Of a stretch of DNA of 63,347 nt, positions 35,950-63,031 are shown one piece after another. The notes beneath the pieces were generated by a model. That model was given only the letters and a program-made list of their open reading frames with translations, did no database searches and was not told where the DNA came from. This stretch comes from an uncultured Nitrosospira sp. (GTDB lineage: Bacteria > Nitrospirota > Nitrospiria > Nitrospirales > Nitrospiraceae): the NCBI GenBank assembly GCA_900696515.1, contig CAADGK010000002.1, forward strand, positions 1 through 63,347, in the 5' to 3' direction. The translations under genes were made by a program, and so were the position numbers. Positions within the stretch are counted from its first letter, which is position 1. Every line of letters begins with the position of its first letter.

Positions 35950-36337
35950 TCCGACAGGTGATTGTTCGCTTTGAAAAGGTCTCGATGTATGCGTTGTCAA
36001 GGGGCTGAGGCTAGGCTCAGCAGGGAAGGCTTGATTTGCCTTGAAAAGTGGTCTGTTGTATCAGGGCTGGAATCTTGATGATGTTGACAACTCAGTCGCG
36101 TTCCATCGTTGCAGGCAATACCTCTTTGAAATCTTGCAAGTGATTGATTTGGTTGGGGACGCATTCGGCACTCGATCGAAGCCTGCACCAGGTTATGAAT
36201 TTGTAAGCATCAAGCCCAGTAGAGTGTTTCGTTCATTGATGACACATACGTTGAGACACTACTGGATCAAGTCACAATGGAATGACCGTGAGATGTAGAC
36301 ACCTCATGGGTTGCGTAGAGGACAGGAGGAACTTGCC

Positions 36338-37111
36338 GTGAAAGCAGTCATTCTTGCTGGGGGAATGGGGACTCGACTTTCAGAAGAGACCGTTTTGCGA
36401 CCGAAACCCATGGTTGAAATCGGGGGGAAGCCCATATTGTGGCATATCATGAAGATATATGCCGCCCATGGCATAAAGGAATTTGTTGTAGGGCTCGGCT
36501 ACAAGGGAGAGATGATCAAGGACTACTTCCTCAACTTCTACGCGTTTAATAAGGATATTTCCGTCGACCTGTTGAGTGGAAAGACGACGATTCATGACGG
36601 GAAACAGCACGAAGACTGGAAAGTGCACCTCGTCGATACTGGGCTGCATACTCAGACGGGAGGTCGGCTTAAACAGTTGAAAAAATGGATAGGCGAAAAC
36701 GAAACGTTTCTGTTTACGTATGGCGACGGGGTTTCAGATGTCGATATTCAAGCCACTATTAAGTTCCATAAGTCTCATGGAAAGTTAGCCACGGTGACGT
36801 CGGTCCTGCCACCTGCCAGATTCGGACGGCTCGTGTTCGATCATGATCACATCGTTGACTTCAAGGAAAAACCTCATGGCGAGGAAGGCTGGATCAACGG
36901 TGGTTTCTATGTCCTCGAACCTAAAGCGATCGACTACATTAACGGCGATGAGACTGTGTGGGAGAGGGATCCGATTCGGCAGCTCACGAGAGATCATCAA
37001 TTGATGGGCTATCGGCACGATCGTTTCTGGTCGTGCATGGATACGCTGAAAGAGAAGAATTATTTGGAGGAGTTATGGCAATCATCGAAGGCTCCCTGGA
37101 AGGTATGGTAA
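36338..37111 (+). CDS. rfbF: Glucose-1-phosphate cytidylyltransferase
   Basis: The protein has 257 residues from GTG 36338, behind AGGAGGA. The upstream TTG 36311 would include the ribosome site. It makes CDP-glucose from CTP and glucose-1-phosphate. VKAVILAGGMGTRLSEETVLRPKPMVEIGGKPILWHIMKIY is the family N-terminus with the GGxGTR nucleotide loop. LFTYGDGVSDVDI holds the metal Asp, and EEGWINGGFYVLEPKAIDYI and WERDPIRQL follow. It is the first gene of a nucleotide-sugar cassette leading towards a CDP-linked deoxysugar. Confidence 0.95.
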   Translation: MKAVILAGGMGTRLSEETVLRPKPMVEIGGKPILWHIMKIYAAHGIKEFVVGLGYKGEMIKDYFLNFYAFNKDISVDLLSGKTTIHDGKQHEDWKVHLVDTGLHTQTGGRLKQLKKWIGENETFLFTYGDGVSDVDIQATIKFHKSHGKLATVTSVLPPARFGRLVFDHDHIVDFKEKPHGEEGWINGGFYVLEPKAIDYINGDETVWERDPIRQLTRDHQLMGYRHDRFWSCMDTLKEKNYLEELWQSSKAPWKVW

Positions 37112-37225
37112 GGTGAGCTGCTAGGTAGATGAGACTCCTGACTCCCCAACCGTGTTTTCCTACTGTACGCTGCAACCTCAATCACCGTCGAACCGCCACA
37201 TTTGGGTAATGTTTAGACTAAGGAA

Positions 37226-38290
37226 ATGAATATGCGAATTTTGATCACAGGGAATATGGGATATGTTGGCCCCTTGGTGTTACGCCGACTGCGTGAATCG
37301 CATCCCGGGGCGACGTTGATCGGATACGATATCGGGTACTTTGCCCATTGTTTGACCGGTTCAGCGCGATTCCCTGAAAGTCGGGCGGATATTCAGTATT
37401 TCGGGGACATCCGGCAAGTGCCCGAAAGGATCCTCCAGGGGATCGACGCGATTGTGCATCTCTGCGCGATCTCCAATGATCCGATGGGGGCCATTTTTGA
37501 GGACGTGACGCTTGATATCAATCACCGCGCAAGCATCGATCTTGCCGTCAAAGCAAAGCGAGCGGGTGTGAAGACTTTCGTGTTCGCCTCAAGTTGCAGT
37601 GTCTATGGTTTTGCGGAGGGAGGCCCTCGCCGGGAGGAAGATGAACTGAACCCGCTCACAGCGTACGCAAAGTCGAAGGTCAGTACTGAACGAGATTTGG
37701 CGTCGCTTACATCGGAATCGTTTATGGCAACGTGTCTTCGGTTTGCAACGGCATGCGGGATGAGTGACCGGTTACGACTGGATCTTGTGCTGAATGATTT
37801 TGTGGCTGGCGCATTGGTGGCTAAACGCATCACGATACTCAGTGATGGGACGCCATGGCGTCCATTAATTCACGTGAGGGATATGGCGAGAGCCATCGAT
37901 TGGGCGGTGCAGAGAGATCGCCGTGACGGCGGCGCGTTTCTGACGGTCAATGTGGGAAGCGATGCATGGAATTATCAGGTGAAGGATTTAGCCACGGCGG
38001 TCACTCAACTTGTTCCAGATGTGGAAGTTTCGATTAACCGTGATGCACAGCCCGATAAGCGATCCTACCGGGTTAACTTCGACAAATTCTCCAAGCTGGC
38101 GCAGGGATTTCTTCCCGCGGTCGATCTTCAGGGCGCCGTGAGGGATCTCCGTGATGGGCTGATGGCCATGGGCTTTCGCGATCCTGATTTTCGGAAGGGC
38201 GAGTTGATACGCTTGGTGACGTTAAGGCGACTGAGAGAGGAAGGTCATTTGACGGACCAGCTCGCATGGAAGGATCCGGCGGCCCGATGA
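37226..38290 (+). CDS. NAD-dependent epimerase/dehydratase (extended SDR)
   Basis: The protein has 354 residues. The Rossmann motif is GNMGYVGP, a variant of GxxGxxG. The catalytic residues are visible as SSCSVYG (Ser) and YAKSK (Tyr-x3-Lys). LCAISNDPMG and PWRPLIHVRDMA are typical of sugar SDRs encoded next to rfbF-like genes. It does not carry the N-terminal pattern of CDP-glucose 4,6-dehydratase (RfbG). It may therefore be a reductase or epimerase acting on a 4-keto sugar, or may replace RfbG. The last roughly 60 residues are hydrophilic (RKGELIRLVTLRRLREEGHL). Confidence 0.85.
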   Translation: MNMRILITGNMGYVGPLVLRRLRESHPGATLIGYDIGYFAHCLTGSARFPESRADIQYFGDIRQVPERILQGIDAIVHLCAISNDPMGAIFEDVTLDINHRASIDLAVKAKRAGVKTFVFASSCSVYGFAEGGPRREEDELNPLTAYAKSKVSTERDLASLTSESFMATCLRFATACGMSDRLRLDLVLNDFVAGALVAKRITILSDGTPWRPLIHVRDMARAIDWAVQRDRRDGGAFLTVNVGSDAWNYQVKDLATAVTQLVPDVEVSINRDAQPDKRSYRVNFDKFSKLAQGFLPAVDLQGAVRDLRDGLMAMGFRDPDFRKGELIRLVTLRRLREEGHLTDQLAWKDPAAR

Positions 38291-38336
38291 GCAGTCAACA
38301 AGGCGGTATGACTAAATTAAGGAAGGAGATCTCGGC

Positions 38337-39572
38337 ATGAAGCCATCGGTCTGTCGCTCATGCGGAGCAGGTCTTGAGCATACGTTTATCGATCTGGGAA
38401 TGTCTCCATTGGCTAATTCGTACATTAAGCCGGAGCACGTGAATCGGATGGAGCCTTTCTATCCTTTACATGTGTATGTCTGCAAGAAGTGCTTGCTGGT
38501 TCAGTTGGAACAGTTTTCAAGCCCGCACGATATTTTTTCAGACTACGCCTACTTCTCCTCGTTTTCCGATTCATGGCTCGCGCATGCTCGGACCTATGTC
38601 GACATGATGGTCGATCGATTCAGATTTGACCGCAACTCGAGAGTCGTAGAGATCGCCAGCAATGACGGGTATCTTCTGAAAAACTTTGTTGAGCGGGGTA
38701 TCCCTGTGCTCGGGGTCGAACCTGCGGCGAATGTGGCCGAAGTCGCAAGGGGAAAAGGGATCAATACCAAGGTGGCGTTCTTTGGTGAAAAAACGGCGCG
38801 TAGCTTGACCGACGATGGATGGGCTGCAGATTTGATAATTGGGAACAACGTATTGGCTCACGTCCCGGATTTGAACGATTTTGTAAGGGGACTCAAGCTG
38901 CTCTTAAGGCCGGCGGGTTTGATCACCATGGAATTCCCTCACCTCCTTCAACTCATGGAGCAGAATCAGTTTGACACGATCTATCATGAACATTTTTCAT
39001 ACTTCTCTTTCATGGCGGTTGAGCAGGTTTTTGCCCGCCATGGGATGAAACTATTTGATGTGGAGGAGTTGCCGACACACGGGGGGTCGCTGCGAATCTA
39101 TGCCTGCCATGATAGCGATGCCTCCAAGCCTGTTGAGACGCGGGCACAGGAACTGAAGTCTCGGGAGGAAGCCCTTGGATTCGGTCACCTCGGGCACTAT
39201 CTCTCGTTTGGTCCGCACGTTGAAGCCACAAAAAGAAAATTGCTGTCTTTCCTGATTGCGGCCAAACAGGAGGGCAAACGTGTTGTCTGTTACGGAGCTC
39301 CGGCAAAGGGCAATACCCTTCTGAACTATTGCGGCGTTCGTACCGATTTCATCGATTACACGGTTGATCGGAGTCCGCATAAGCAAGGCCACTTTCTTCC
39401 CGGTGTCCATATTCCGATTTATGAGCCGGAACGGGTGCGTGTGACTCAGCCGGACTATCTCCTGATCTTGCCCTGGAATATTCGGGAGGAGGTTATGAAC
39501 CAGATGAGCTATATTCGTGAGTGGGGTGGGAAGTTCGTCGTTCCGATCCCCGCGGTGCAAGTGTACCCATGA
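38337..39572 (+). CDS. TylC3-like sugar C-methyltransferase
   Basis: The protein has 411 residues and three domains. The N-terminal zinc module is CRSCGAGL...VCKKCLL (about 5-55). A SAM-binding Rossmann fold follows (VVEIASNDGYLLKNF, about 100-200, then NNVLAHVPDLNDFV). The C-terminal Methyltransf_14-type domain shows VVCYGAPAKGNTLLNY. The motif YHEHFSYFS matches the Tyr/His catalytic region of the 3-C-methyltransferases TylC3/TcaB9. Such enzymes methylate C3 of 4-keto deoxysugar nucleotides. A good AAGGAGAT-type site precedes ATG 38337. Confidence 0.93.
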   Translation: MKPSVCRSCGAGLEHTFIDLGMSPLANSYIKPEHVNRMEPFYPLHVYVCKKCLLVQLEQFSSPHDIFSDYAYFSSFSDSWLAHARTYVDMMVDRFRFDRNSRVVEIASNDGYLLKNFVERGIPVLGVEPAANVAEVARGKGINTKVAFFGEKTARSLTDDGWAADLIIGNNVLAHVPDLNDFVRGLKLLLRPAGLITMEFPHLLQLMEQNQFDTIYHEHFSYFSFMAVEQVFARHGMKLFDVEELPTHGGSLRIYACHDSDASKPVETRAQELKSREEALGFGHLGHYLSFGPHVEATKRKLLSFLIAAKQEGKRVVCYGAPAKGNTLLNYCGVRTDFIDYTVDRSPHKQGHFLPGVHIPIYEPERVRVTQPDYLLILPWNIREEVMNQMSYIREWGGKFVVPIPAVQVYP

Positions 39573-40105
39573 TTTTCACGCAAACCGTCCTGATGGGTGC
39601 CTTTGTCATTGATCCTGAGCCTGCCTCCGATGAACGGGGGGTGTTCGCCAGAGTCTGGTGCGAAAAAGAGTTCGAAGCACATGGGCTTTCCACGAGATGG
39701 GTCCAATCGAGTATTTCCTTCAACCGTCGCAAGGGGACATTGCGGGGGATGCACTATCAGGCTCATCCCAATGAGGAAGTGAAATTGGTCCGCTGCACTG
39801 CTGGTGCGATCTATGATGTCATTGTGGACTTGCGAGCAACATCACCGACTTATGGGCGGCATGTGGGTGTGATGTTGACGGCGGATAACCATCGGTCTCT
39901 GTACATTCCGAAACAATTTGCGCATGGGTTTCTCACGCTGCAAGACAATTCCGAAGTTTCCTATCACATGTCGGAGTTCTATGAGCCTTCGAGTGCGCGA
40001 GGTATTCGCTGGGATGACCCGCAGTTGCACATCAAGTGGCCGGAGCCCATTGCGATCATGTCGGAGAGGGATCAACTGTGGCCGAAGTTCAGTGTGAACG
40101 GGTGA
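39569..40105 (+). CDS. dTDP-4-dehydrorhamnose 3,5-epimerase-like protein
   Basis: The protein has 178 residues from ATG 39569, which overlaps the previous stop by four bases. It is an RmlC-type cupin: SDERGVFARVWCEKEFEAHG, SSISFNRRKGTLRGMHYQAHP with the catalytic His, and VRCTAGAIYDVIVDLRATSPTYG. The ending IPKQFAHGFLTLQDNSEVSYHMSEFYEP is typical. In this cassette the substrate is more likely a CDP-4-keto sugar than dTDP-sugar, since no rmlA/rmlB is seen. The symbol rfbC is therefore not assigned. Confidence 0.92.
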   Translation: MIFTQTVLMGAFVIDPEPASDERGVFARVWCEKEFEAHGLSTRWVQSSISFNRRKGTLRGMHYQAHPNEEVKLVRCTAGAIYDVIVDLRATSPTYGRHVGVMLTADNHRSLYIPKQFAHGFLTLQDNSEVSYHMSEFYEPSSARGIRWDDPQLHIKWPEPIAIMSERDQLWPKFSVNG

Positions 40106-40111
40106 CGTGAC

Positions 40112-41404
40112 ATGGAACTCGATGGTTCTCTGGTCAGTCTGATGAAAGAGCTGTATCCAATTTGCCGGAGTATTACCGGTGAGGGAGTTCGAGAGACTCT
40201 GAGGATAATCCAAAAACGCATTCCCCTTGAAATGCGGGAAGTTCCTAGCGGAACAAAGGTATTTGATTGGACGGTTCCATTGGAGTGGAACGTGTCCGAT
40301 GCCTATGTCATGGATCGGGCGGGGAAGCGCGTGATCGACTTTCAGTCGCACAATTTGCATCTGATGAGTTACAGCGTGCCGGTTCGAAAGAAAATGAGCC
40401 TCGAAGAGTTGCGCCCCCATCTGTTCAGTCTTCCGGCTCATCCGGGGTGGATTCCCTATCGAACCTCCTATTATAAGGAGAACTGGGGCTTTTGCCTTCG
40501 CCATGCCGACGTCGAACGACTTTCTGATGAGGAATACGACGTCGTCATTGACTCGACGCTTCAGGCCGGTTTTCTGACCTATGGCGAGGCCTATCTGCCG
40601 GGTGAAGTATCTGAGGAAGTGCTCGTGTCTTGCCATGTCTGTCATCCGTCGCTGTGCAATGACAACCTCTCCGGCATTGCGGTGGCGGTGAAGCTGGCCG
40701 AGACGATGGCTGCTCGCGCAAGGCGCTATTCATACCGGTTTCTTTTTATTCCTGGGACCATTGGATCGATTACATGGCTGGCTCAGAACGAACAGACCGT
40801 GTCGCGCATTCGGCATGGGCTTGTCGTAACCGGGGTGGGTGATGCGGGAAATGTCACCTATAAGAAGAGTCGTCAGGGCAATGCGGAGATGGACCGGGCG
40901 ATGACGCACGTATTGAGACATGCGGGAGAGGCTCATTCCATTATCGATTTCTTCCCGTACGGTTATGATGAGCGGCAGTTCTGCTCTCCCGGCTTTAACT
41001 TGCCTGTCGGCTGTTTCATGCGAACACCGCATGGCCAGTACCCGGAGTATCACTCATCCGCTGATAATCTGGACCTTATCCGGCCGGAGTCTCTTTCAGG
41101 ATCCTATGAGCATTGCTTGAAAGTATTCGAGTTGCTGGAAGGAAATAGAGTATACGTGAATCAGAGTCCGAAATGTGAACCGCAATTGGGCCGACGGGGA
41201 CTGTATCGTTCGGTTGCGGGGCAGCAAGAAAATCAGTCCAGGGAACTCGCGCTTCTCTGGGTATTGAATATGTCCGATGGGCGGCATGCGTTGCTCGATA
41301 TCGCGGACCGCGCGGATCTTCCATTCGGCCAAATTCAATCCGCAGCCGACGCCTTGGTAGGGGCTGGACTGTTGAAAGAGTTGCAGAGGCCCGGGAGCGC
41401 CTAA
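40112..41404 (+). CDS. DUF4910 / M28-like aminopeptidase-domain protein with winged helix
   Basis: The protein has 430 residues. The N-terminus LMKELYPICRSITGEGVRETL is a hallmark of this family. The aminopeptidase-like core shows SCHVCHPSLCNDNLSG (likely metal His and Asp) and GYDERQFCSPGFNLPVG. The C-terminal roughly 70 residues (ALLWVLNMSDGRHALLDIADRADLPFGQI) look like a winged-helix domain. Family members recur in polysaccharide clusters, but their reaction is not established. The metal-site residues are intact, so hydrolysis of an amide on a sugar is possible. Confidence 0.85.
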   Translation: MELDGSLVSLMKELYPICRSITGEGVRETLRIIQKRIPLEMREVPSGTKVFDWTVPLEWNVSDAYVMDRAGKRVIDFQSHNLHLMSYSVPVRKKMSLEELRPHLFSLPAHPGWIPYRTSYYKENWGFCLRHADVERLSDEEYDVVIDSTLQAGFLTYGEAYLPGEVSEEVLVSCHVCHPSLCNDNLSGIAVAVKLAETMAARARRYSYRFLFIPGTIGSITWLAQNEQTVSRIRHGLVVTGVGDAGNVTYKKSRQGNAEMDRAMTHVLRHAGEAHSIIDFFPYGYDERQFCSPGFNLPVGCFMRTPHGQYPEYHSSADNLDLIRPESLSGSYEHCLKVFELLEGNRVYVNQSPKCEPQLGRRGLYRSVAGQQENQSRELALLWVLNMSDGRHALLDIADRADLPFGQIQSAADALVGAGLLKELQRPGSA

Positions 41405-41771
41405 GGGAGAAACAGCATGAACACCGTGTGAAATGGCGGCGCTCTATGAGGATAAAACGGTCGGGGATGGAAAACTTGTTGATGCAATTGATGAAGAGGC
41501 CTGATCGCTGACACAGACGGCAGGAGCATTTTCATGGGAGTGTGTGTGGTGGTGTTCTCTCGTAGGTACTATATATCGTCTACGCATTCTGTGGAGGAAT
41601 ATCTGGCAGGATGATATTATTGAACAGTGTAGACGGATATTAATGCAGTGGTCCGTGGAAGAAGTGTCAGCGGAGAGAGAGGCCAACCCTGATTGATTCA
41701 AAGGGGTGAGCCTGAGTAGTGTTAAGTGTCATGAATCGGATAGAGGCTTTATTTGCAAAGGAACCAAGGTT
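41405..41771. other. 367-base leader region before the export genes
   Basis: No gene is visible. It contains the second GGTACTATATAT element (41565-41576), immediately followed by an inverted repeat, CGTCTAC (41577-41583) with GTAGACG (41629-41635). It may hold an internal promoter for the export and assembly genes. Confidence 0.45.
41565..41576 (+). promoter_or_regulatory. GGTACTATATAT element, copy 2
   Basis: This is an exact 12-base match to 35938-35949. It lies about 195 bases before the first polysaccharide export gene and abuts a 7-base inverted repeat. A related GGTGATATATA occurs at 61658-61668 before the capA-like gene. Confidence 0.25.
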
Positions 41772-42494
41772 ATGAAACATGACTTTTGGTACATCGCTAT
41801 ACTGACAGCCATACTATTGGCGGTAGCTCCGGGCAGTGCATTCTCTGAATCGGGGTCGGTCAAGTCTGATGTCGGGAAAATGCCGACAGATGTTCCTCTG
41901 TTGCCTGCAGGGACAGGGCAGGGCGACAAAATGAGCGGTCAGGTATTGACGGATAAGCTGTCGAATGCGGTCGGGACAGAATATGTCATCGGTGCCGAAG
42001 ATGTACTGGATATCACTGTTTGGCGCAACGTTGATTTGTCAAGGCAGGTGCAGGTGCGTCCGGATGGGCGGATTTCAATGCCCATCATTCGGGATGTCGT
42101 GGCTGTGGGGAAAACCCCCACCAAATTGGCAGAGGAAATGACGAACAAGCTCAAGGAATATGTTCAGAATCCTGTCGTTGCCGTGACCTTAAAGGAAGTC
42201 AATAGTTCCAATATTTTTCTTCTGGGTGAAGTCGCCCATCCGGGCAAGTATCCGCTCAAGAGCCGGACGACGCTCTTGCAGGGCATTACGATGGCGGGAG
42301 GGTTTAAGGAAACTGCGGCAAGAAATCAAATCGTCATTTTTCGATTTACTGAAACCGCTCCTGGTATGAAGCGATTTACCGCGAGCTATGATGACATTGT
42401 GCTTCGCAGCGGGATCAGCGACAACTTTGAGCTGAAACCCGGCGATACTCTTGTAGTTCCCAGTGAGTCGATGGTGGTGTTCCCTGGTCGCTAG
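41772..42494 (+). CDS. Polysaccharide export protein (Wza/KpsD-like), non-lipidated
   Basis: The protein has 240 residues from ATG 41772. An earlier GTG at 41706 would precede the signal peptide with unlikely sequence. The signal peptide is WYIAILTAILLAVAPGSAFS, and there is no Cys in the N-terminus, so it should be a soluble periplasmic protein. The Poly_export domain (EYVIGAEDVLDITVWRNVDLSRQVQVRPDGRISMP) is followed by one SLBB domain (NIFLLGEVAHPGKYPLKSRTTLLQGITMAGGF). It has no C-terminal Wza-type helix. It is a clear paralogue of the next gene, 24 bases away. Confidence 0.93.
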   Translation: MKHDFWYIAILTAILLAVAPGSAFSESGSVKSDVGKMPTDVPLLPAGTGQGDKMSGQVLTDKLSNAVGTEYVIGAEDVLDITVWRNVDLSRQVQVRPDGRISMPIIRDVVAVGKTPTKLAEEMTNKLKEYVQNPVVAVTLKEVNSSNIFLLGEVAHPGKYPLKSRTTLLQGITMAGGFKETAARNQIVIFRFTETAPGMKRFTASYDDIVLRSGISDNFELKPGDTLVVPSESMVVFPGR

Positions 42495-42517
42495 CAAAGC
42501 CGGAAAGGACTGCTGCA

Positions 42518-43159
42518 ATGACGGACGCGCGATGGAGGAATAGGTGGTATCCCAAATTATTAAACGCGTTGGTAATGGCGGTGTTGCCGTGCCTTGTCGT
42601 CGCTCAAACAGGGTGCTTCGGACCGGTAACATCAAGAGAGTATAAGGCCTCCGATCTTCCGACGGAGTTTCTTCTGGGATCCGAGGATCAGATTGAAGTC
42701 AATGTATGGAAGAATCCGGACTTGTCACGAATCACGTTAATTCGGCCGGATGGGTATGTATCGATGCCGATCATCGGAGATGTGCAGGCTGCGGGCCTTA
42801 CGGCAGAAGCCCTTGCGGCTCAGATAACTGAGCGACTAAAAGGCTATATCCAAAATCCCTCGGTGTCAGTGAATGTGAAAGAACTGAACAGTTATTCCGT
42901 ATTTGTGTTGGGTGAAGTCGCAAAGCCAGGGAAGTATCAGTTGAAGTCTTACGTTACGGTACTACAGGCAATTTCTATGGCAGGCGGCTTTACAAACTAT
43001 GCGAGTAAGAATAGATTGCAGGTTGTGCGAGTAATTGAAAGCCCAGGCCACAAGCGGCAGGAGATCCATATCCCCCTGCGGTATGACGATCTCGTGAGTG
43101 GTCGGGGAGAACCCGGTAACATCGTACTGGCCTCCGGTGATACGCTGGTCGTACCGTGA
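42518..43159 (+). CDS. Polysaccharide export protein (Wza/KpsD-like), probable lipoprotein
   Basis: The protein has 213 residues. The N-terminal signal ends in VVAQTGC with Cys33, an acceptable but imperfect lipobox. The Poly_export domain (EFLLGSEDQIEVNVWKNPDLSRITLIRPDGYVSMP) and one SLBB domain (VFVLGEVAKPGKYQLKSYVTVLQAISMAGGF) follow. It stops immediately after GDTLVVP, so it lacks the helix by which Wza crosses the outer membrane. It is closely related to the preceding gene, probably by tandem duplication. Confidence 0.92.
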   Translation: MTDARWRNRWYPKLLNALVMAVLPCLVVAQTGCFGPVTSREYKASDLPTEFLLGSEDQIEVNVWKNPDLSRITLIRPDGYVSMPIIGDVQAAGLTAEALAAQITERLKGYIQNPSVSVNVKELNSYSVFVLGEVAKPGKYQLKSYVTVLQAISMAGGFTNYASKNRLQVVRVIESPGHKRQEIHIPLRYDDLVSGRGEPGNIVLASGDTLVVP

Positions 43160-45847: not shown

Positions 45848-46321
45848 TGAGCCTTTCTGCCGGCATGGAACTGGACGTTTGCTCGATGTTGAAACCGGTG
45901 TGGGGTTGAGTCGGCCCATCCGAGAGCAAGCCTTGGATGCAGGCAGATGTTGGGGGAAACCCTCCTCAATCTTCTAGATAATGTTACTTGTTTCAAGCAG
46001 TCTGGTGGTACACTGGATGCTGATGAAATCGTGTTCGCTGTCCTGCGCTGTAACCCATCATATGATCGTGTGGATAGGCGTCATGCAGGCATGGACTGTT
46101 GCCATGAATTGTCAAGGTGCAGAGTGCTGGGTGGAATTCCAGTCCCTCATGGCAACAACATGACACGCGCATCTATAGGACTAGCAGTATTCCTTTCAGC
46201 GTGACCTGTTCAAACCGTCGGTAAACGTTAAAGGTTTCAAAATAAACGACGCGCCAAGATGGTAGGCTATCCCTGCCGGGCTGTTTGATGTCTCAATGGA
46301 ATGATGTCTAGTGAGGTAGAT
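45848..46321. other. 474-base gap upstream of the ABC exporter genes
   Basis: There is no convincing gene. The region contains an 11-base perfect inverted repeat (TGTTGCCATGA at 46097-46107 and TCATGGCAACA at 46147-46157). Between the arms lies a smaller potential stem (CTGG...CCAG around GGAATTCC). It may form a structured leader RNA for the Wzm/Wzt genes. Confidence 0.4.
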
Positions 46322-47152
46322 ATGGAAGAGGGTATCCCAGTCATTCGAATTGAACCGACAAGAGGATGGGTCGCACTTCAACTGAGGGAGCTGTGGGCCT
46401 ATCGGGAGATGCTAGGATTTTTAATCTGGCGCGATATAAAAGTACGTTACAAACAGACGGCGCTTGGTGCCGCATGGGCGATTATCCAGCCTATTTCAAC
46501 GATGGTTATTTTTAGCCTCTTCTTCGGACGATTGGGGAAAATTCCTTCTGATGGGATTCCGTATCCGATCTTTGCGTATACCGCCCTGGTTCCCTGGAGC
46601 TTCTTTGCGCAGGGATTGACGCAGGCGTCCAACAGCCTGGTAGGAAGCGCAAATCTGATTAAAAAGGTCTATTTCCCCAGGCTCGCAGTCCCCATTGCCG
46701 CAGTAACCTCTGGGCTTGTAGATCTGGCGCTGGCGTTCACTGTTTTGCTCGGTATGATGCTCTACTTCGGTATTGTGCCCGGTGTCAAAGTACTGTGGCT
46801 TGCCCCACTGCTCTTGCTGACGTTGACGACTTCTCTGGGGGTATCGCTCTGGCTTTCCGCCCTCAATGTCCACTTTCGTGATGTCCGGCACGTTATCCCA
46901 TTTCTGACGCAATTCTGGCTCTTTGCAACTCCCATCGCCTATCCAAGCAGTTTATTGTCGGAACCGTGGAGGACGCTCTATAGCCTCAATCCGATGGTTG
47001 GAGTCGTTGAAGGATTTCGTTGGGCGTTGCTTGGAACAGAAACAGCCCCTGGACCAATGATCATCGTGTCCTCGGTGGCGGCGCTGGCCATTTTAGTGAG
47101 TGGCACATTCTACTTCCGCCGACTGGAAAAGACTTTTGCCGACGTGATTTGA
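46322..47152 (+). CDS. wzm: ABC-2 type polysaccharide/polyol exporter permease (Wzm-like)
   Basis: The protein has 276 residues from ATG 46322, preceded by GTGAGGT. An ATG at 46301 is an alternative. It has six membrane segments. LIWRDIKVRYKQTALGAAWAIIQPISTMVIFSLFFG is the signature of O-antigen/capsule ABC exporter permeases, and YALNPMVG-like YSLNPMVGVVEGFRWALLG closes the domain. Together with the next gene it would move undecaprenyl-linked polysaccharide across the inner membrane. Confidence 0.93.
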   Translation: MEEGIPVIRIEPTRGWVALQLRELWAYREMLGFLIWRDIKVRYKQTALGAAWAIIQPISTMVIFSLFFGRLGKIPSDGIPYPIFAYTALVPWSFFAQGLTQASNSLVGSANLIKKVYFPRLAVPIAAVTSGLVDLALAFTVLLGMMLYFGIVPGVKVLWLAPLLLLTLTTSLGVSLWLSALNVHFRDVRHVIPFLTQFWLFATPIAYPSSLLSEPWRTLYSLNPMVGVVEGFRWALLGTETAPGPMIIVSSVAALAILVSGTFYFRRLEKTFADVI

Positions 47153-47334: not shown

Positions 47335-48627
47335 ATGAGTGAAATCGCGATACGAGTGGTGGAAATCGGCAAGGAGTTCCGCCTTGGGAAGAGGGAAAAA
47401 TATCAGACGTTCCGCGACACGATTGCGGCCTTTGTCGGCGGTCCATTTCAGAAGGTCGGGAAAATGTTGCGTGGAGAAGCCTCAGATCCGGCTGATCCGA
47501 TTGAAACGTTCTGGGCACTGAAGGATGTGTCGTTTGAAGTGAAACGGGGGGACGTTATTGGGGTTATTGGAGGGAATGGGGCCGGTAAGAGCACCCTTTT
47601 GAAAATACTGTCAAGAATTACCGAGCCGACGCTGGGTTTCGCGGAAATCCACGGGCGGGTCGCGTCGCTCCTGGAGGTAGGAACTGGATTTCATCCGGAA
47701 CTCACGGGGAGGGAAAATATCTATCTGAACGGGGCGATCCTCGGGATGAAGCAAAAGGAGATCGACAGAAAGTTTGATGAGATTGTCGACTTTTCAGAGG
47801 TGGAAAAGTTTATCGACACTCCGGTCAAGCACTATTCCAGCGGCATGTATCTTCGACTGGCCTTCGCCGTCGCGGCACATCTTGAACCGGAGATTCTGCT
47901 GGTCGACGAGGTGTTAGCAGTCGGGGATGCGGGGTTTCAGAAGAAGTGTCTGGGCAAGATGGGAGCCGTGGCCAAACAGGGACGGACGGTGCTGTTTGTG
48001 AGTCACAACATGAGTGCGGTTACCCAGTTATGTGGAACAGTCGTTCAGCTAGAGAAGGGGAAAGTCAGGCGGATCGGCCCCTCTGCCGATGTGGTCAATG
48101 CCTATTTGGCTTCGTCGTTGGGGACAGAAATCAAGTCCAGCTGGTCGAGCGAATCTTCAGCCAAGTCTAACTCAGAAGTTCGATTTACATCAGCGAGAGC
48201 ACTGTCCGTCGATGAACAACCGCTGTCAGGTATCAATTTTAATGAAACACTGCTCATTGAGATTGTCTATGAGGTGATGATTCCGATGCGAGATCTTGCT
48301 GTTACCTTTCACCTCCATGATTCAATGGGGAACCTTGTTTTCGAGTCGATGGATACGGATCTGCCAGAATGGAGAGGGTATGTGAAAGAGCCTGGTCTCT
48401 ATCATGCTGTCGCGAAGGTTCCTCCCGCTCTCTTAAGGCCTGGGCGATACCATATCTCCTTGGTCTCTTTCATTGAAGGAGTAAGGCTTTTTGAGAGCAT
48501 TAAAGGGGCGTTAGCATTTGATGTGTTGGATGTGGGGTATACCTTACAGCCAAAGCGGCATGGCATCGTTTCGCCGCTTCTTGATTGGAAGGTGCGCCGA
48601 GTGAAAGACAGAGTGACGATTGGCTAG
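47335..48627 (+). CDS. wzt: ABC transporter ATPase for polysaccharide export (Wzt-like)
   Basis: The protein has 430 residues. The ATPase domain has Walker A at 79-87 (GGNGAGKST), the signature YSSGM at about 168, Walker B EILLVDEV and the H-loop FVSHN. A C-terminal beta-sandwich domain of about 160 residues (from about 270) resembles the Wzt carbohydrate-binding domain that recognises a capped glycan end. Such a domain usually means export depends on a terminal modification, for example by a methyltransferase. An AGCGAGGAATC site precedes ATG 47335. Confidence 0.94.
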   Translation: MSEIAIRVVEIGKEFRLGKREKYQTFRDTIAAFVGGPFQKVGKMLRGEASDPADPIETFWALKDVSFEVKRGDVIGVIGGNGAGKSTLLKILSRITEPTLGFAEIHGRVASLLEVGTGFHPELTGRENIYLNGAILGMKQKEIDRKFDEIVDFSEVEKFIDTPVKHYSSGMYLRLAFAVAAHLEPEILLVDEVLAVGDAGFQKKCLGKMGAVAKQGRTVLFVSHNMSAVTQLCGTVVQLEKGKVRRIGPSADVVNAYLASSLGTEIKSSWSSESSAKSNSEVRFTSARALSVDEQPLSGINFNETLLIEIVYEVMIPMRDLAVTFHLHDSMGNLVFESMDTDLPEWRGYVKEPGLYHAVAKVPPALLRPGRYHISLVSFIEGVRLFESIKGALAFDVLDVGYTLQPKRHGIVSPLLDWKVRRVKDRVTIG

Positions 48628-48666
48628 AACGGTCGCCTGAACCCACAAGAGAAAGAGCAAGCCTTG

Positions 48667-49905
48667 GTGAACGAAATATTAAGGGAATTCGGTATTGAGG
48701 TAAAGCGATACGTTCCGAGTATCTACGAAGAGATGGTTACGCTTGGCGCAGGAAGCAGTTCAAAAGGTCATGTGCTACTGTCCTATTTGATCAAGCCATT
48801 TTTAGTAAAGTCCGAAGCGCAGATCCCGACGTCACATACGAACCACTGGAGATGTCTGCAGATCGCCAAAATTCTCTTGGATTTGGGATACACCGTTGAT
48901 GTGATCGACTCACATAACAAAACGTTTGAGCCGACGAAGTCGTACACCATGTTCATTGGTCACCGGATCAATTTCGATCGGATCGCGATGCTGCTCAACG
49001 CCGATTGCATCAAGATTGCCCACTTGGATACGGCACATTGGATTTATAATAACTATGCGACCTATCGAAGAAAGCTGGAGTTACAGCAGAGAAGAGGGAT
49101 TACGATCAAGGGGAGCGATAGGATCGTGGAGCACACGCTGGCAAACGAACACGCGGATTACGTGACCGTATGCGGGAATAATTTCAATATCAATACGCTT
49201 CGGTACTTGAACAAGCCGATCTATACGCTTCCGCAAACTCCAGCCGTCTTGTACCCATGGCCGGAGCAGAAAGATCATGGCGCGTGCCGGAAGAACTTTC
49301 TCTGGTTCGGTAGCCACGGCTTTGTACACAAGGGCTTGGATTTGGCATTGGAAGCGTTTGCTGAAATGCCGGATTATCATTTGTATGTGTGTGGGCCGCT
49401 GGGGAAAGAGCCTGATTTTGTGAAGGCATACGAACAGGAATTGTATCGAACATCCAATATTCATCCCGTCGGATGGGTTGATGTGGAGAGTCCGAAGTTT
49501 GTGACGACCGCGAACCAATGCCTCGGAGTCGTCAACCCCTCTTGTTCCGAGGCAGGAGGGGGGAATGTGATTGTCTGCATGCATGCGGGCTTAATTCCAC
49601 TTGTGAGTTATGAGACGAGTGTGGATGTCCATGATTACGGCGTGATGTTCAGGGACAGCGCCATCAATACGATCAAGGACACGGTGCAGCTGGTGTCCAA
49701 TCTCCCGGTCGAACAATTGACTCGGATGTCCAGAAGGGCATGGGAGTTTGCCAGAGACAACCACACAAGGGATAAATTCGCCGTAGAGTATGAGAAACTC
49801 ATCGTGAATATTCTGGCTAAGGCAGCGGTCAAGGATGAAGTAGGGCATGTCGGTTGCGGCCGTGATTCACGCGCCACTGATCCAATGACTCTCATGCAAA
49901 AGTAA
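48667..49905 (+). CDS. Glycosyltransferase (GT-B type), stand-alone paralogue of the next gene
   Basis: The protein has 412 residues from GTG 48667; TTG 48664 is adjacent. It reads as a GT-B enzyme with a GT4-type second half: FLWFGSHGFVHKGLDLALEAFAEMPDYHLYVCGP, then NIHPVGWVDVESPKF and NPSCSEAGGGNVIVCMHAGLIPLVS. The N-terminal half includes SYTMFIGHRINFDRIA and IKIAHLDTAHWIYNNYATYRRKLELQQRRG. These segments recur almost in register in the C-terminal two thirds of the following gene, so the pair arose by duplication. Donor and acceptor are unknown. Confidence 0.85.
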   Translation: MNEILREFGIEVKRYVPSIYEEMVTLGAGSSSKGHVLLSYLIKPFLVKSEAQIPTSHTNHWRCLQIAKILLDLGYTVDVIDSHNKTFEPTKSYTMFIGHRINFDRIAMLLNADCIKIAHLDTAHWIYNNYATYRRKLELQQRRGITIKGSDRIVEHTLANEHADYVTVCGNNFNINTLRYLNKPIYTLPQTPAVLYPWPEQKDHGACRKNFLWFGSHGFVHKGLDLALEAFAEMPDYHLYVCGPLGKEPDFVKAYEQELYRTSNIHPVGWVDVESPKFVTTANQCLGVVNPSCSEAGGGNVIVCMHAGLIPLVSYETSVDVHDYGVMFRDSAINTIKDTVQLVSNLPVEQLTRMSRRAWEFARDNHTRDKFAVEYEKLIVNILAKAAVKDEVGHVGCGRDSRATDPMTLMQK

Positions 49906-49972
49906 TCCGCAAAGCACACAGGGTATCGTATCCGGTAAGCTCGAACAAGTCCTCTCCCGGGGTTGGCGCCTC

Positions 49973-51976
49973 ATGTCGCGTCCGGTCATACTTGAAAAGT
50001 CGATCATCGTCTCTGCGCATCCGGACGATGAAGTGCTGTGGTTTAGTTCCATTCTGGAGAAGGTGGAGACAGTTCTGATCTGCTTTCTCAACAATGAGAC
50101 GCATCCAAGGTACAACGCAGGAAGACGCAAGAGCTTGGAAGAGTATCCGATCAAGAACGTCTTGTGTTTTCACATGGACGAAGCGGGGGTGCTGAACGGC
50201 GCGAATTGGAAAAGGCCGGTCGCGACCGAGTACGGGCTCGAGATTGTCCAGGATCATATTCCGCTGCAGAGGATTCAGAAGTACAAGGATAACTACCGGG
50301 AGTTGGTGCAGCGATTGGAGCAACAGCTGCGTGGATATAGAAATGTGTTTACCCATAATCCCTGGGGAGAGTACGGACACGAAGAACATGTACAGGTGCA
50401 CCGTGCGGTCACATCGTTGCAGAAGAAACTAGGGTTTCACTTCTGGTATTCGAATTATGTCGCCGAGAAATCATTCCGGATGATGACGGCGCATCGTGAA
50501 CGACTGCGGTGTGAGTCGGTAACCCTTGGCACGAACCGGACACTGGCGCACGAGATCAAAGAGATCTACAGAAGGAATGACTGTTGGACCTGGCATGATA
50601 ACTGGGAGTGGTTGCCGAAAGAATCATTCGTCAGAGAGTTGACCGTTGCTGAGGCGAAGACGCGCAGTCGTCCGTTTCCCACGAACCGTATCAGGGTCAC
50701 TCCTCCTCCATCGTTCTATTCGCTCGTCAAACAAGCGCTGAATAGGGTTTCGACGGAGATCACCCGCTCGCTGGGGTTTGAAATCAGTCGACGACGCCGG
50801 GAGCCGTGGGACCGGGTCGTGTGGCTTCAGCCGGACCGGCCGCCCAACGGTACGGTGCTGCTTTCCTGGGATGTGACACCGTTCGGCGAGGCGTCCCGTC
50901 TTCCCGGCGCTCCGGTACCGCCCATCGACAAAGACTGCGTCCGAGTTGCCCGCGCATTCCTGGATCTGGGCTTCTCCGTGGAGGTGGTTGATGTGCGGAA
51001 TCGTGCCTTCCACCCGAGGAAGCCGTACGTGATGTTCGCCGGGCATCGAATGAATTTTGACCGGCTTGCCGGCGAGCTTCCCAAGACATGCATCAAGATC
51101 GCCTGTCTGGACACTGCGCACTGGGTCTTTCACAATCAGGCGACGTACCGTCGTCAATTCGAATTGCAGCAGCGAAAGGGTGTAACCGTTGCGGGCAGCC
51201 AGTGTCTTATTGAGCCAGACCTGGCGATTGAACACGCGGACTATGCGGTCATATACGGCAACAACTGGACGATGGATACCTATCGGTATGCGAATGTCCC
51301 TCTCTTCCGTGTGCCACGGTTCACGGGCGCTGCGTTAAATCGGCCTGAGGAGAAAGATCCGAATGCCTGTCGCAGGCGGTATCTTTGGCTTGCCGATCAA
51401 GGTATCGTCCATAGGGGCCTGGATCTCGCGTTAGATGCATTTGCAGCGATGCCGGAGTACGAGCTGTATGTGTGTGGTCCCATTGAGAGAGAGAAGGAGT
51501 TCGTCAAAGCCTACTATAGAGAGTTGTACCGTACGGCCAACATTCACCCGATCGGAAGTGTGGATGTGATGGGGGCGGGCTTTCAGGAGATTGCGAATAG
51601 ATGTATTGGCATAGTATTCCCATCTTGTTCGGAGGCGCAGGCAGTCCCCGTGATCACGGCCATGCATGCCGGGCTTCTTCCTTTGGTAAGCGAAGAAGCC
51701 GGGATCGATGTGGACGAGTATGGGGTGGTGTTTGCCAATCATGATGTGACCACGATCCAGGAGGCGGTCCGTCGGGTTTCCGGCCTGTCGACCGACTGTT
51801 TACGCGAGATGGCGAGAAAGGCCTGGGGACATGCTCGAGAGAACCATACAAGCGAACATTTTTCCAGGGTGTTTAAACAAATAGTTTTGGGTATCATGGA
51901 GAAACACAGGGAAGGCAACAGCTCGCATCCGGGAAGGGGGGACTGTGGGAGTTCGGGTTTCCAGGTGAAAGCATGA
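49973..51976 (+). CDS. Fusion of PIG-L-type deacetylase and glycosyltransferase
   Basis: The protein has 667 residues. Residues 8-175 form a PIG-L/LmbE-type metal-dependent deacetylase. AHPDDE is at 15-20, with the zinc His and Asp. The second motif is GHEEHVQVHRAV at 135-146, with His residues at the expected places. A linker (about 190-280) leads to a glycosyltransferase (about 281-650) homologous along its whole length to the preceding gene (HRMNFDRLAG, DTAHWVFHNQATYRRQFELQQRKG, RGLDLALDAFAAMPEYELYVCGP, PSCSEAQAVPVITAMHAGLLPLVS). It could transfer an N-acetylated sugar and deacetylate it, or act at two steps on one glycan. Its stop overlaps the next start (ATGA). Confidence 0.88.
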   Translation: MSRPVILEKSIIVSAHPDDEVLWFSSILEKVETVLICFLNNETHPRYNAGRRKSLEEYPIKNVLCFHMDEAGVLNGANWKRPVATEYGLEIVQDHIPLQRIQKYKDNYRELVQRLEQQLRGYRNVFTHNPWGEYGHEEHVQVHRAVTSLQKKLGFHFWYSNYVAEKSFRMMTAHRERLRCESVTLGTNRTLAHEIKEIYRRNDCWTWHDNWEWLPKESFVRELTVAEAKTRSRPFPTNRIRVTPPPSFYSLVKQALNRVSTEITRSLGFEISRRRREPWDRVVWLQPDRPPNGTVLLSWDVTPFGEASRLPGAPVPPIDKDCVRVARAFLDLGFSVEVVDVRNRAFHPRKPYVMFAGHRMNFDRLAGELPKTCIKIACLDTAHWVFHNQATYRRQFELQQRKGVTVAGSQCLIEPDLAIEHADYAVIYGNNWTMDTYRYANVPLFRVPRFTGAALNRPEEKDPNACRRRYLWLADQGIVHRGLDLALDAFAAMPEYELYVCGPIEREKEFVKAYYRELYRTANIHPIGSVDVMGAGFQEIANRCIGIVFPSCSEAQAVPVITAMHAGLLPLVSEEAGIDVDEYGVVFANHDVTTIQEAVRRVSGLSTDCLREMARKAWGHARENHTSEHFSRVFKQIVLGIMEKHREGNSSHPGRGDCGSSGFQVKA

Positions 51977-52959
51977 AGGTGGAGTCTCAACCACTCGTAA
52001 CGGTACTCACGCCGGTATACAACGGCGTGGAATTTTTACAGGAATGTATTGAGAGCGTGCTGGGGCAATCGTATCACAATTGGGAATATTGCATTGTGAA
52101 CAATTGCAGCACCGATCGTACCCTTGAGGTGGCTCAAGCATATGCGACAAAAGACAAACGGATCCGAATCTGTAACAACTCAGAATTCGTCAGCAGCGGA
52201 CGAAATGGGAATATTGCGTTCCAACAGGTTTCACCGAACAGTAAGTACTGTAAGGTTGTCCATGCCGATGACTGGCTGTTCCCTGAATGTCTCATGAAAA
52301 TGGTTGAGCTCGCGGAAGTCCATCCGACCGTCGCGATAGTTGGAGCCTATGGGCTGGTTGGAGACTTCGTATCCTGGGATGGTTTGCCGTATACCAAGTC
52401 GGTCATGTCCGGCAGAGACATCTCCAGATGGATTCTTTTGGGGAAACCGTATGTGTTCGGCAATCCTACGTCTCTACTCCTGCGAGCAGACGTGGTGCGA
52501 GCTTCAGGTCAATTTTACAATGAGTCCAATAATCACCGCGACTCCGAAGCCTGTCTTCGCATTCTGAGGAATTGGGACTTTGGTTTTGTTCATCAAGTGT
52601 TGACCTATAACAGGCTGCGAGAGGGGTCCGAGAGAAGTTTTAGTAAGCGGTACAATACGTACTTGCCCAATTATGTTGATAGACTGCTGCAGTTTGGACC
52701 GGCTGTATTGAGTCAAGATGAATTACAGTCGCGCCTAAAACACCATCTCGATGTGTATTATGAGTATCTGGCCAGCTCGCTGCTCGGGCTGAGAGACAAG
52801 GAGTTTTGGGACTTCCATAAGGATAAAATGAAGCAGATCGGCCACCCACTGAGCCTGACAAGGTTACTGGCCGCCGTTTGCTCACAAGTCATGGAATATC
52901 TGTGTAATCCAAAACGGACGGCCGAGAGTCTCATGAAGAGGTCCTCGAGGCCCCGATAA
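51973..52959 (+). CDS. Family 2 glycosyltransferase
   Basis: The protein has 328 residues. The GT-A domain opens VTVLTPVYNGVEFLQECIESVLGQSYHNWEYCIVNNCSTDRT. The metal site reads HADDWLFPE (D-D in place of D-x-D). The C-terminal 100 residues are helical and include VMEYLCNPKRTAESLMKRSSRPR. There are no membrane segments. It is translationally coupled to the fusion gene upstream. Confidence 0.9.
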   Translation: MKVESQPLVTVLTPVYNGVEFLQECIESVLGQSYHNWEYCIVNNCSTDRTLEVAQAYATKDKRIRICNNSEFVSSGRNGNIAFQQVSPNSKYCKVVHADDWLFPECLMKMVELAEVHPTVAIVGAYGLVGDFVSWDGLPYTKSVMSGRDISRWILLGKPYVFGNPTSLLLRADVVRASGQFYNESNNHRDSEACLRILRNWDFGFVHQVLTYNRLREGSERSFSKRYNTYLPNYVDRLLQFGPAVLSQDELQSRLKHHLDVYYEYLASSLLGLRDKEFWDFHKDKMKQIGHPLSLTRLLAAVCSQVMEYLCNPKRTAESLMKRSSRPR

Positions 52960-55204: not shown

Positions 55205-56548
55205 ATGGGATTGTATTCACTGACGCGGTCTATTCGCTGGTGGTTGAACGGGTTTCCGGGCGACGCGTATGCGCGGCTTCTTGCACAGTCAGAGCATTGG
55301 TCAAAAGAAGAGATGCGGGCCTACCGTGACGGAAAGCTCCAAAGGTTAATCGCCCACTGCTACGAGAATGTTCCCTACTATAAGGATGTCATGGATCGTG
55401 AGAAGCTCAGGCCCGGTGATATCCGATCCGCGGCTGATCTCGCAAAGTTGCCCCTGTTGACAAAAGAGACAGTGAGGAAGCATCGAGACGAGTTGATGGC
55501 TTCGAACATACAGCAGATGGCAGTTACCTGGTCTAAAACGGGAGGTACCACCGGAGAGCCAATGAGGATTTGTCGGAATGTCGAATCCGGTGCGTGGTCG
55601 AGTATGTGTTATGAGCGCGGATTGGGATGGGGAGGATTGGGCCTTGAGGATCCGAGGATCAAACTGTTCGGTGGGTCGTTGGGAATCGACAAGAAGTCCT
55701 TCATTGAAAACCTTGGAACAAGGATTCGACGGGATGTGTTCTTGCCGGCCTTCGAGCTTCGTGTAGATACGGCGCCGACTTTCTTCAGTAACATTCGCAA
55801 TTCCCGCAGCCGCTTCTTGATAGGATATGCCTCTGCTGTGTTTCGGCTGGCCAAGCTGGCGGAAGAGATGAATGACTCGATTCGATTCGATGCGGTGTTC
55901 CCAACGGCGGAGTTGTTGTTGCCGGAATGGGAAGAAACGATTCGAAAGGTGTTTCAATGCCATGTCTTGCCGTATTACGGGAGCGGCGAAGTGGGATCTT
56001 TAGGGTATTCTCGCCCGGATTCCAGCGGGTATTTTATCCCAGAGGAGCACGTCGTCATAGAGGTGCTGCAAAAGGACGGCTCCACGCAATTGTCGGGTGA
56101 CGGAGGGTTCGTGATCACGGAGCTTGATAACTATGCCATGCCCCTGATTCGGTACGTGAATGGTGATGCGGGAAAAGTTTCCGACTCTCCAGGCAGTGGT
56201 CTCCCTTTTAGCCGGATCGAACGGCTGGATGGAAGATATAATAGTTTGCTTCTGACGGATACCGGGGATTTGATTTCCGGAGCGATCGGTGCTCACATCT
56301 TCCGTCACGTTCCGTCGGTTCGAACGTACAGAATCATTCAAGAGACCCAACTGGATGTCAGTATTAATATTGTCCCAGAAGCCAGCTATAGCGAGAAAGA
56401 TGAGAATCTTATCCTGGGCCTATTTGGTAGGCATCTTGGCAGAAAGACAAAAATAGCTATCCATCGAGTAACTCATATCGAGACTCCGCCATCTGGAAAG
56501 TCCGTCTTTGTCATTAATAAGTGTCTCTCCTCACCAGTTCGTCACTAA
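55205..56548 (+). CDS. CapK/PaaK-like adenylate-forming enzyme
   Basis: The protein has 447 residues and belongs to the ANL superfamily, phenylacetate-CoA ligase branch. The nucleotide loop TGGTTGEP is at 112-119, with YYGSGEVGSLGYSRP and ITELDNYAMPLIRYVNGDAGKV further on. Members encoded in capsule and exopolysaccharide clusters (CapK-like) are thought to activate an acid for attachment to the glycan, but their substrates are not established. No carrier protein or acyltransferase is adjacent. A GAGGTAGGA site precedes ATG 55205. Confidence 0.88.
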   Translation: MGLYSLTRSIRWWLNGFPGDAYARLLAQSEHWSKEEMRAYRDGKLQRLIAHCYENVPYYKDVMDREKLRPGDIRSAADLAKLPLLTKETVRKHRDELMASNIQQMAVTWSKTGGTTGEPMRICRNVESGAWSSMCYERGLGWGGLGLEDPRIKLFGGSLGIDKKSFIENLGTRIRRDVFLPAFELRVDTAPTFFSNIRNSRSRFLIGYASAVFRLAKLAEEMNDSIRFDAVFPTAELLLPEWEETIRKVFQCHVLPYYGSGEVGSLGYSRPDSSGYFIPEEHVVIEVLQKDGSTQLSGDGGFVITELDNYAMPLIRYVNGDAGKVSDSPGSGLPFSRIERLDGRYNSLLLTDTGDLISGAIGAHIFRHVPSVRTYRIIQETQLDVSINIVPEASYSEKDENLILGLFGRHLGRKTKIAIHRVTHIETPPSGKSVFVINKCLSSPVRH

Positions 56549-61867: not shown

Positions 61868-63031
61868 ATGGATTCGGTGGAACTAAAACTCGCATTCTGT
61901 GGCGATATCATGCTAGGCGCTGAGGTAGCTCAGTGTATGGGGAACGTAACCGTAGAAGAATGGCTTAAAGGGGTATCGCCTGCATGGGAAGGGGCTGATT
62001 TACTAATTGGCAACCTTGAGACTCCCTGTGTAATTCATGCAACGCCTATTGAATCTAAGCCTCCTGAGCTTGTTTTCAAGGCTCCAGCAAGTCGGTTGCA
62101 GGAACTTGTAAAGGCAGGGTTTTCGGCGGTCACTATTGCTAATAATCACGTTCTAGACTGTGGCCGAATTGGATTATCCGAGACGTTACATGAGCTCAAG
62201 AACTCCGGGCTGTATTACGCCGGTGCCGGTATGAATCTGTCCGAGGCCTTAAAACCGGCCTATATCCCAGTACGCGGTCTGACCGTCGGATTAGTCGCGT
62301 TCTGTTACGGCCCACGTGCCGGCTATTCGTCTCCTGGAGCAGCTCCGTGCGATCTTCCAGTTATGCACGAAACCTTAAAGACTGCTCGTGCTAATTCTGA
62401 CATTGTAATTGCGGCCCTCCATGATGGACTGGAGTATTCCGATGTTCCTCCGGCTGAAACTCGGGCTCGATTTCGTTTTCTTGCCGAGAACGGGGCCGAC
62501 ATCGTGATCGGTCATCATCCGCATGTCCTGCAAGGTCTTGAGTGGCAGGGTTCGATTCCGATCGCATACAGCCTCGGCGATTTTCTCTTCCACAACTCAC
62601 TTCCCCATGTTACAAAACGCAACTTTTCTAGGATGGCACTGGGACGGCTGGCACCCGAAGAGGTGCAACGCGATCCTCACAAATTTATGCGAGGTGCCGT
62701 GTTGACTGCTCAATTTCGTAATGGGGAAAAGTCCATTCAATGGCACCCGTTCCGTCAGGGGAAAGATCTTCGGCCTCAACTATCTTTGGATTCAACCTGC
62801 TCTGAAGACCTTCGTAGATTGGAGAACCTGAGTGCCGCTCTTCTCAACGAGACCGATCCGCGACACTCGCTAGCCAACGAAGTAAGGGCCAAGGCTCTTC
62901 AAGAGTCGAGGGATAGCCTAGAGCTAAAGGAAATACTTCGACTCATGTCAAAACCAAAGTGGCGATACATCGCAAATGGGATACGCTGGGCAAGCCGTAG
63001 GATAGCAGGGATCAAGGGGGGCCGGCGATGA
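61868..63031 (+). CDS. CapA-like metallophosphatase-fold protein
   Basis: The protein has 387 residues from ATG 61868; GTG 61877 has the better spacing to AGTAGGG. The family motifs are LAFCGDIMLG, IGNLETP, VTIANNHVLDCG, HDGLEYSDVPP and IGHHPHVLQGLEWQGSIPIAYSLGDFLFHN, which carry the metal ligands. CapA of Bacillus belongs to the poly-gamma-glutamate capsule system. Relatives in other clusters have unclear roles. There is no signal peptide, so a cytoplasmic location is likely. The C-terminal 100 residues are basic and helical. Confidence 0.9.
   Translation: MDSVELKLAFCGDIMLGAEVAQCMGNVTVEEWLKGVSPAWEGADLLIGNLETPCVIHATPIESKPPELVFKAPASRLQELVKAGFSAVTIANNHVLDCGRIGLSETLHELKNSGLYYAGAGMNLSEALKPAYIPVRGLTVGLVAFCYGPRAGYSSPGAAPCDLPVMHETLKTARANSDIVIAALHDGLEYSDVPPAETRARFRFLAENGADIVIGHHPHVLQGLEWQGSIPIAYSLGDFLFHNSLPHVTKRNFSRMALGRLAPEEVQRDPHKFMRGAVLTAQFRNGEKSIQWHPFRQGKDLRPQLSLDSTCSEDLRRLENLSAALLNETDPRHSLANEVRAKALQESRDSLELKEILRLMSKPKWRYIANGIRWASRRIAGIKGGRR

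Follow-up and report, generated by a model that had tools for sequence, protein, structure and literature searches.

Genes at the locus

The window, that is, the whole stretch of 63,347 nucleotides that was analyzed, contains a gene in which a PIG-L domain is joined to a glycosyltransferase (GT) domain. This joining had been claimed in a preliminary description of the region, and it was borne out: the open reading frames lie where they had been placed, Pfam finds the PIG-L domain, and BLASTP aligns the C-terminal half with the glycosyltransferase encoded upstream. The fusion gene and its neighbors show the following features.

46301..47152, + strand: Wzm-like ABC polysaccharide exporter permease (name inferred from sequence; in several lineages homologues lie just before the PIG-L/GT module)
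47335..48627, + strand: Wzt-like exporter ATPase with a C-terminal carbohydrate-binding domain (Pfam ABC_tran, E 1.7e-19; Wzt_C, E 3e-10)
48664..49905, + strand: stand-alone glycosyltransferase, 413 aa; start at TTG 48664 or GTG 48667
49973..51976, + strand: fusion gene, predicted PIG-L deacetylase plus GT4-like glycosyltransferase, 667 aa (AlphaFold2 mean pLDDT 90)
49973..50707, + strand: PIG-L domain, fusion residues 1-245 (Pfam E 1.6e-7; profile matches to MshB 1Q74/4EWL, E 1.7e-3)
50015..50032, + strand: AHPDDE motif, residues 15-20; predicted metal ligands H16 and D19; general base D18 by analogy with MshB
50375..50389, + strand: GHEEH, residues 135-139, with predicted metal ligand H139, and H136; aligned to YGHPDHV of MshB
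50708..50815, + strand: linker, residues 246-281, holding the GT's own basic N-terminal helix (helix 248-266 in the model)
50816..51916, + strand: predicted GT-B glycosyltransferase domain, residues 282-648 (Foldseek and VIA-align matches), diverged at family-invariant positions
51632..51634, + strand: E554, first Glu of an EX7E-type motif (second position T562)
51973..52959, + strand: GT2 glycosyltransferase, the gene after the fusion (Pfam E 1e-25), whose start overlaps the fusion stop

The presence of wzm-wzt beside the module and of a carbohydrate-binding domain in the Wzt-like protein places the fusion in an operon for a Wzm/Wzt ABC-exported polysaccharide, and the fusion shares its last 4 bp (ATGA) with the start of the gene that follows. 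There is no second PIG-L match in this genome. Among the polysaccharide genes examined in the window, none is obviously for amino-sugar synthesis, and the donor would therefore need to be household UDP-HexNAc.

Upstream, a cassette at positions 36311-41404 of the window encodes a sugar nucleotidyltransferase, an NAD-dependent dehydratase/epimerase, a C-methyltransferase, a dTDP-sugar 3,5-epimerase-like protein, and a DUF4910/DUF2172/HTH_47 protein of the CA_C2195 type (PMC4000134). In most related loci this cassette adjoins the GT family of the fusion, whether PIG-L is present or not, and its recurrence suggests a methyl-branched deoxysugar in the same polymer. Positions 41706-43159 hold two tandem related genes (about 42-50% between homologues), of which 41706 encodes a Poly_export/SLBB outer-membrane export protein according to Pfam and 42518 a shorter, similar one; a beta-barrel protein (43249) follows. 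Amid the run of glycosyltransferase genes, an AMP-forming CoA-ligase/PaaK-like protein is encoded at 55205-56548 (78-85% in some sister loci), and an acyl activation step in the same pathway is a possible role for it. The polysaccharide region ends with a CapA-like PGA_cap protein at 61868-63031 (Pfam E 7.7e-62).

The PIG-L half retains the residues of the metal site

The N-terminal half of the fusion matches PF02585 at residues 12-148 with 32.4 bits, above the curated cut-off of 28.2, and a profile built from PIG-L homologues finds MshB, with the AHPDDE and GHxxH motifs aligned. AHPDDE and both GHxxH histidines (H136 and H139) do not vary among 17 PIG-L homologues, which come from several phyla. 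As judged from these alignments, this half is a PIG-L domain in which the residues of the deacetylase metal site are all intact. The preliminary description had named beforehand the loss of metal-binding residues in an alignment to PIG-L enzymes as its refuting test, and none is lost. The AlphaFold2 model of the fusion was built from an alignment of 56 rows, a model from an alignment of 10 fusions (pLDDT 45) being discarded. It is confident over the PIG-L half, although the fold search with the whole model listed GT matches only; with a pTM of 0.66, it is no reliable guide to how the two domains are arranged in space.

The likeness to MshB could mean that the fusion serves the synthesis of a low-molecular-weight thiol of the mycothiol or bacillithiol type rather than of a polysaccharide, because the logic of the enzyme pair and the folds are the same. 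However, the fusion scores 16.6 bits with the NCBIfam MshB equivalog TIGR03445, which has a cut-off of 224.35, no BshB model was reported for it in the NCBIfam search, and it sits inside a polysaccharide export operon that is conserved across lineages. A role in thiol synthesis is, on these grounds, most improbable.

The glycosyltransferase half and the stand-alone glycosyltransferase

GT4-type Pfam domains were detected at about residues 480-602 of the fusion with scores just under the cut-off; with the Pfam GT1/GT4 profile both GTs of the window fell just below the cut-off and the homologues from L052 and L053 above it. In fold comparisons, the modeled GT half matched SPS, HepE, SenB, MshA, and BshA with Z scores of 22-27 over about 300 residues, the values being about 24-25 for SenB (SenB-UDP-GlcNAc), HepE, MshA, and BshA, and about 22 for WaaG. 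The model places the GT half in the GT-B fold, closest to UDP-sugar GT4 enzymes that include MshA and BshA. The EX7E motif is incomplete in both proteins: its first Glu is invariant (E554 in the fusion, E296 in the stand-alone GT), and the second position is T562 in the fusion and V304 in the stand-alone GT. For this reason the GTs of the window are called here GT4-like. Both Glu residues are kept in some relatives, e.g. those at L046:10702-11916 and in L049.

By BLASTP, the stand-alone GT and the C-terminal half of the fusion share 48% identity over 386 aa (E 4e-133), which excludes chance as the source of their likeness. The alignment starts inside the linker (EILREFGIEVKR vs EITRSLGFEISR). 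The basic N terminus that had been described as shared by the two proteins has indeed a counterpart in the linker, but it is an ordinary N-terminal segment of the GT family that is also present in unfused relatives.

Fused, split, and separate forms of the gene pair

The fusion was found as one open reading frame in 11 of the 79 genomes of the genus, that is, in the genome of the window and in ten others, and a chimeric assembly was rejected on this account. In genome G116 the same two parts are separate genes that overlap by ATGA, and their junction (L042 9672-9740) contains a 32-base tandem near-repeat with 22/32 matching positions, a value reached by 0 of 2000 shuffles. This repeat points to a split that arose by duplication and is likely a gene-fission scar. 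In genome G198 (L124 3210-3270), one base differs from the fused relatives at the linker and gives rise to a PIG-L stop/GT start overlap (ATGA); this genome is poor and has a second frameshift in the GT, the linker change may be real or an assembly error, and it was left out of the counts.

Outside the genus, PIG-L and GT are separate genes, adjacent or clustered, and repeatedly lie just 3' of wzm-wzt. In a Woeseiaceae genome (L053) the two genes overlap and lie with wzm-wzt and the same cassette of sugar genes, and they overlap directly after wzt in G445 (L121), which belongs to another family of the window's phylum. In Ca. Brocadia (L052) PIG-L and GT come after wzm-wzt homologues, with two more genes and a short ORF between, and in G322 (L120), also from another family of the window's phylum, wzt is followed by two more genes and then by PIG-L, a DegT aminotransferase gene, and GT. 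These neighborhoods were called by a simple ORF script that can hide genes in G+C-rich contigs, and the positions of PIG-L and GT were therefore rechecked by tblastn. The separate neighboring genes outside the genus indicate that the fusion is a merged conserved gene pair and, together with the MshA/BshA-like fold, they support the sequential action of GT and then PIG-L that had been put forward in the preliminary description. A search of plasmids returned PIG-L-only matches in three records and no fusion, and a search of phages returned no match. A protein of about 1220 aa from an uncultured proteobacterium (L066 23-3679), which contains TPR, a weak GT2-like match, and PIG-L, is an independent PIG-L fusion.

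Many relatives of the GT have no PIG-L nearby, so the sugar that the GT transfers may lack an N-acetyl group. The PIG-L half might target something other than the product of the GT. It would then act on a different unit of the polymer, on an acyl group such as O-acetyl, or on a chain end read by the C-terminal domain of Wzt, and the fusion would only tether PIG-L to the assembly complex. The common occurrence of GT homologues without PIG-L beside the same CDP-sugar cassette, the presence of Wzt_C, and the DegT gene that separates PIG-L from GT in L120 are consistent with such a target, whereas the finding that PIG-L is repeatedly fused to this GT family or encoded directly next to it favors a shared intermediate, and we consider a different target to be rather improbable.

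Phylogeny of the glycosyltransferase halves

The GT tree contains two fused lineages. Lineage I comprises the fusions of the window, G152, G123, G142, and G185, and lineage II comprises six other fusions, the split G116 gene, and the stand-alone GT of the window, with support of 100/100 for this group of eight; the stand-alone GT of G152 is the sister of the lineage II group (96/91). The approximately unbiased (AU) test rejected a single clade of all fused GTs without unfused ones (p 1e-8; 0.003 with G116 added) as well as a sister relation of the two GTs of the window (p 0.009), and alternative placements of the window stand-alone GT within or beside lineage II gave p 0.34-0.46, none being rejected. 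The same protein is about 70% identical to the GT halves of the sister-species fusions.

According to this tree, the stand-alone GT is an orthologue of the GT halves of sister-species fusions and not the source of the fusion, and the fusion of the window represents a second lineage, distinct from that of the stand-alone GT. The statement that the fusion carries a full copy of the upstream GT is therefore too strong: the two GTs share 48% identity but fall into different sub-clades, and an origin of the GT half by recent duplication from the upstream gene was rejected (p-AU 0.009). Its grouping with the GT halves of fusions implies that the stand-alone GT of the window was probably once joined to a deacetylase that it no longer has. 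The pattern is accounted for most economically if the genes fused early and the stand-alone copies later shed PIG-L, and two separate fusions may also lie behind it. Among the 11 fusion genomes, a lineage II-type stand-alone GT is found in exactly the two that keep a lineage I fusion as second copy; two given genomes out of 11 would coincide with a chance of 1 in 55, as counted once the data were known.

Unequal divergence of the two halves

At sites conserved in ≥95% of 32 GTs (in an alignment in which one phylum supplies most of the GT rows), the GT half of the window fusion departs at 12 of 64 positions, with changes that include K481R, S475D, H319D, and W529S, compared with 0-1 in each of the other fusions and 1 in the stand-alone GT. 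The PIG-L half of the same protein departs at 1 of 29 sites. The branch lengths agree with this difference, being 0.82 for the window fusion and 0.39 for its sister over the GT half, and 0.33 and 0.32 over the PIG-L half. A search for recombination inside the GT half by sliding identity and G+C revealed no clear breakpoint, the divergence extending over several stretches. Both halves show saturation at synonymous sites and a moderate amount of nonsynonymous change, a pattern that indicates that both are still under purifying selection and that the GT half would not be decaying freely, its constraint being altered rather than absent. As to the state of the two active sites, the PIG-L site is intact by alignment and the GT half has the modeled GT-B fold, but the latter has lost family-invariant residues.

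These data bear on the reading that one chain carries out both steps in this genome, with the GT half of the fusion fully active on the sugar that its PIG-L half deacetylates and the stand-alone GT adding a different residue. PIG-L and GT are fused or neighboring across lineages, the open reading frame is intact, dN is low over the GT half where dS is saturated, and the first Glu of the motif (E554) is kept, all of which would fit such a reading; nevertheless, a number of changed near-invariant residues far above that of any other fusion, and a long branch that is confined to the GT half, make it unlikely. The earlier proposal that the two steps are carried on one chain thus fits the sister species and fits less well here, where residues invariant in the family are kept by the stand-alone GT but not by the GT half of the fusion.

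Proposed mechanism

Taken together, these results lead us to propose, with moderate confidence, that GT and de-N-acetylase form a cytoplasmic module which produces a free-amine sugar for a polysaccharide exported by an ABC transporter, and that the work of this module is divided in this genome. The architecture, the intact deacetylase site, the conserved neighborhood, the phylogeny, and the selective divergence of the GT half are observed, as is, in the form of a model, the GT fold; from these we infer the donor, the acceptor, the deacetylation of that same sugar, and the division of labor. The GT and de-N-acetylase gene pair would have merged in an ancestor within the genus. On the cytoplasmic side of the membrane, the GT-B half, a putative retaining GT4-like enzyme, would extend the lipid-linked glycan by a sugar, for which N-acetylhexosamine supplied as the UDP-sugar is the simplest choice; the metal-dependent PIG-L half would then take off the acetyl group to leave a free amine before ABC export. 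The free-amine sugar as the product is likewise deduced, and such amines would give the cell surface positive charge. For the sister species, both steps are probably carried out by a single chain. In this genome the stand-alone GT appears to be the better candidate for the conserved transfer and the fusion for the deacetylation, and the GT half of the fusion may have been re-specialized or may dock the glycan.

A more specific version is offered only tentatively. The enzyme would fuse, split, and lose domains at one linker; the GT half of the fusion would now be a non-catalytic or re-targeted glycan-docking module, its partner would be a stand-alone transferase without a deacetylase of its own, and the result would be free-amine sugars on the ABC-exported polymer.

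Comparison with known systems

The products of MshA and BshA are deacetylated by PIG-L enzymes. In the MshA/MshB and BshA/BshB pairs, as in the fusion, a GT4 GlcNAc transferase is combined with a PIG-L/LmbE de-N-acetylase that acts after it, and the MshB motifs align to the PIG-L half; these pairs are, however, separate proteins that produce small thiols, whereas the fusion is one chain in a polysaccharide operon and scores far below the family cut-offs. In GPI-anchor synthesis, PIG-A/PIG-L place GlcNAc on a membrane-bound acceptor and then de-N-acetylate it at the cytoplasmic face, in the same two-step order as that proposed for the fusion, but the system is eukaryotic, its proteins are separate, and its acceptor is phosphatidylinositol. 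The proposed order of sugar transfer and deacetylation is drawn by analogy with these pairs. The L066 protein also carries PIG-L and a glycosyltransferase-like domain on one chain, and it differs from the fusion in its domain order, its weak GT2-type match, and its TPR repeats.

In agreement with the earlier remark that this fusion was not recognized from described systems, no description of a PIG-L-GT fusion was found in open-access papers, and a text search of a review on the LmbE superfamily showed no mention of glycosyltransferases (PMC4101496). GT4 and PIG-L pairs are known as separate enzymes, and as far as found their link to surface polysaccharides has only been speculated, in the lipopolysaccharide (LPS) core of Pseudomonas aeruginosa, where WaaG (GT4) has been proposed to transfer GalNAc and DnpA, a PIG-L protein of the same cluster, has been speculated to be the deacetylase (PMC10579960). 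WaaG/DnpA resembles the fusion in the pairing of GT4 with PIG-L and in the fold of WaaG, which matches the GT half as given above. It differs in that the genes are unlinked within the cluster, the product is the LPS core, there is no wzm-wzt operon, and the substrate of DnpA is a presumed one. Compared with these systems, a fused pair kept in about ten genomes, with separate neighbors elsewhere, is genomic evidence that GT and PIG-L act on one intermediate, and the fusion provides a single-protein test case for that shared intermediate.
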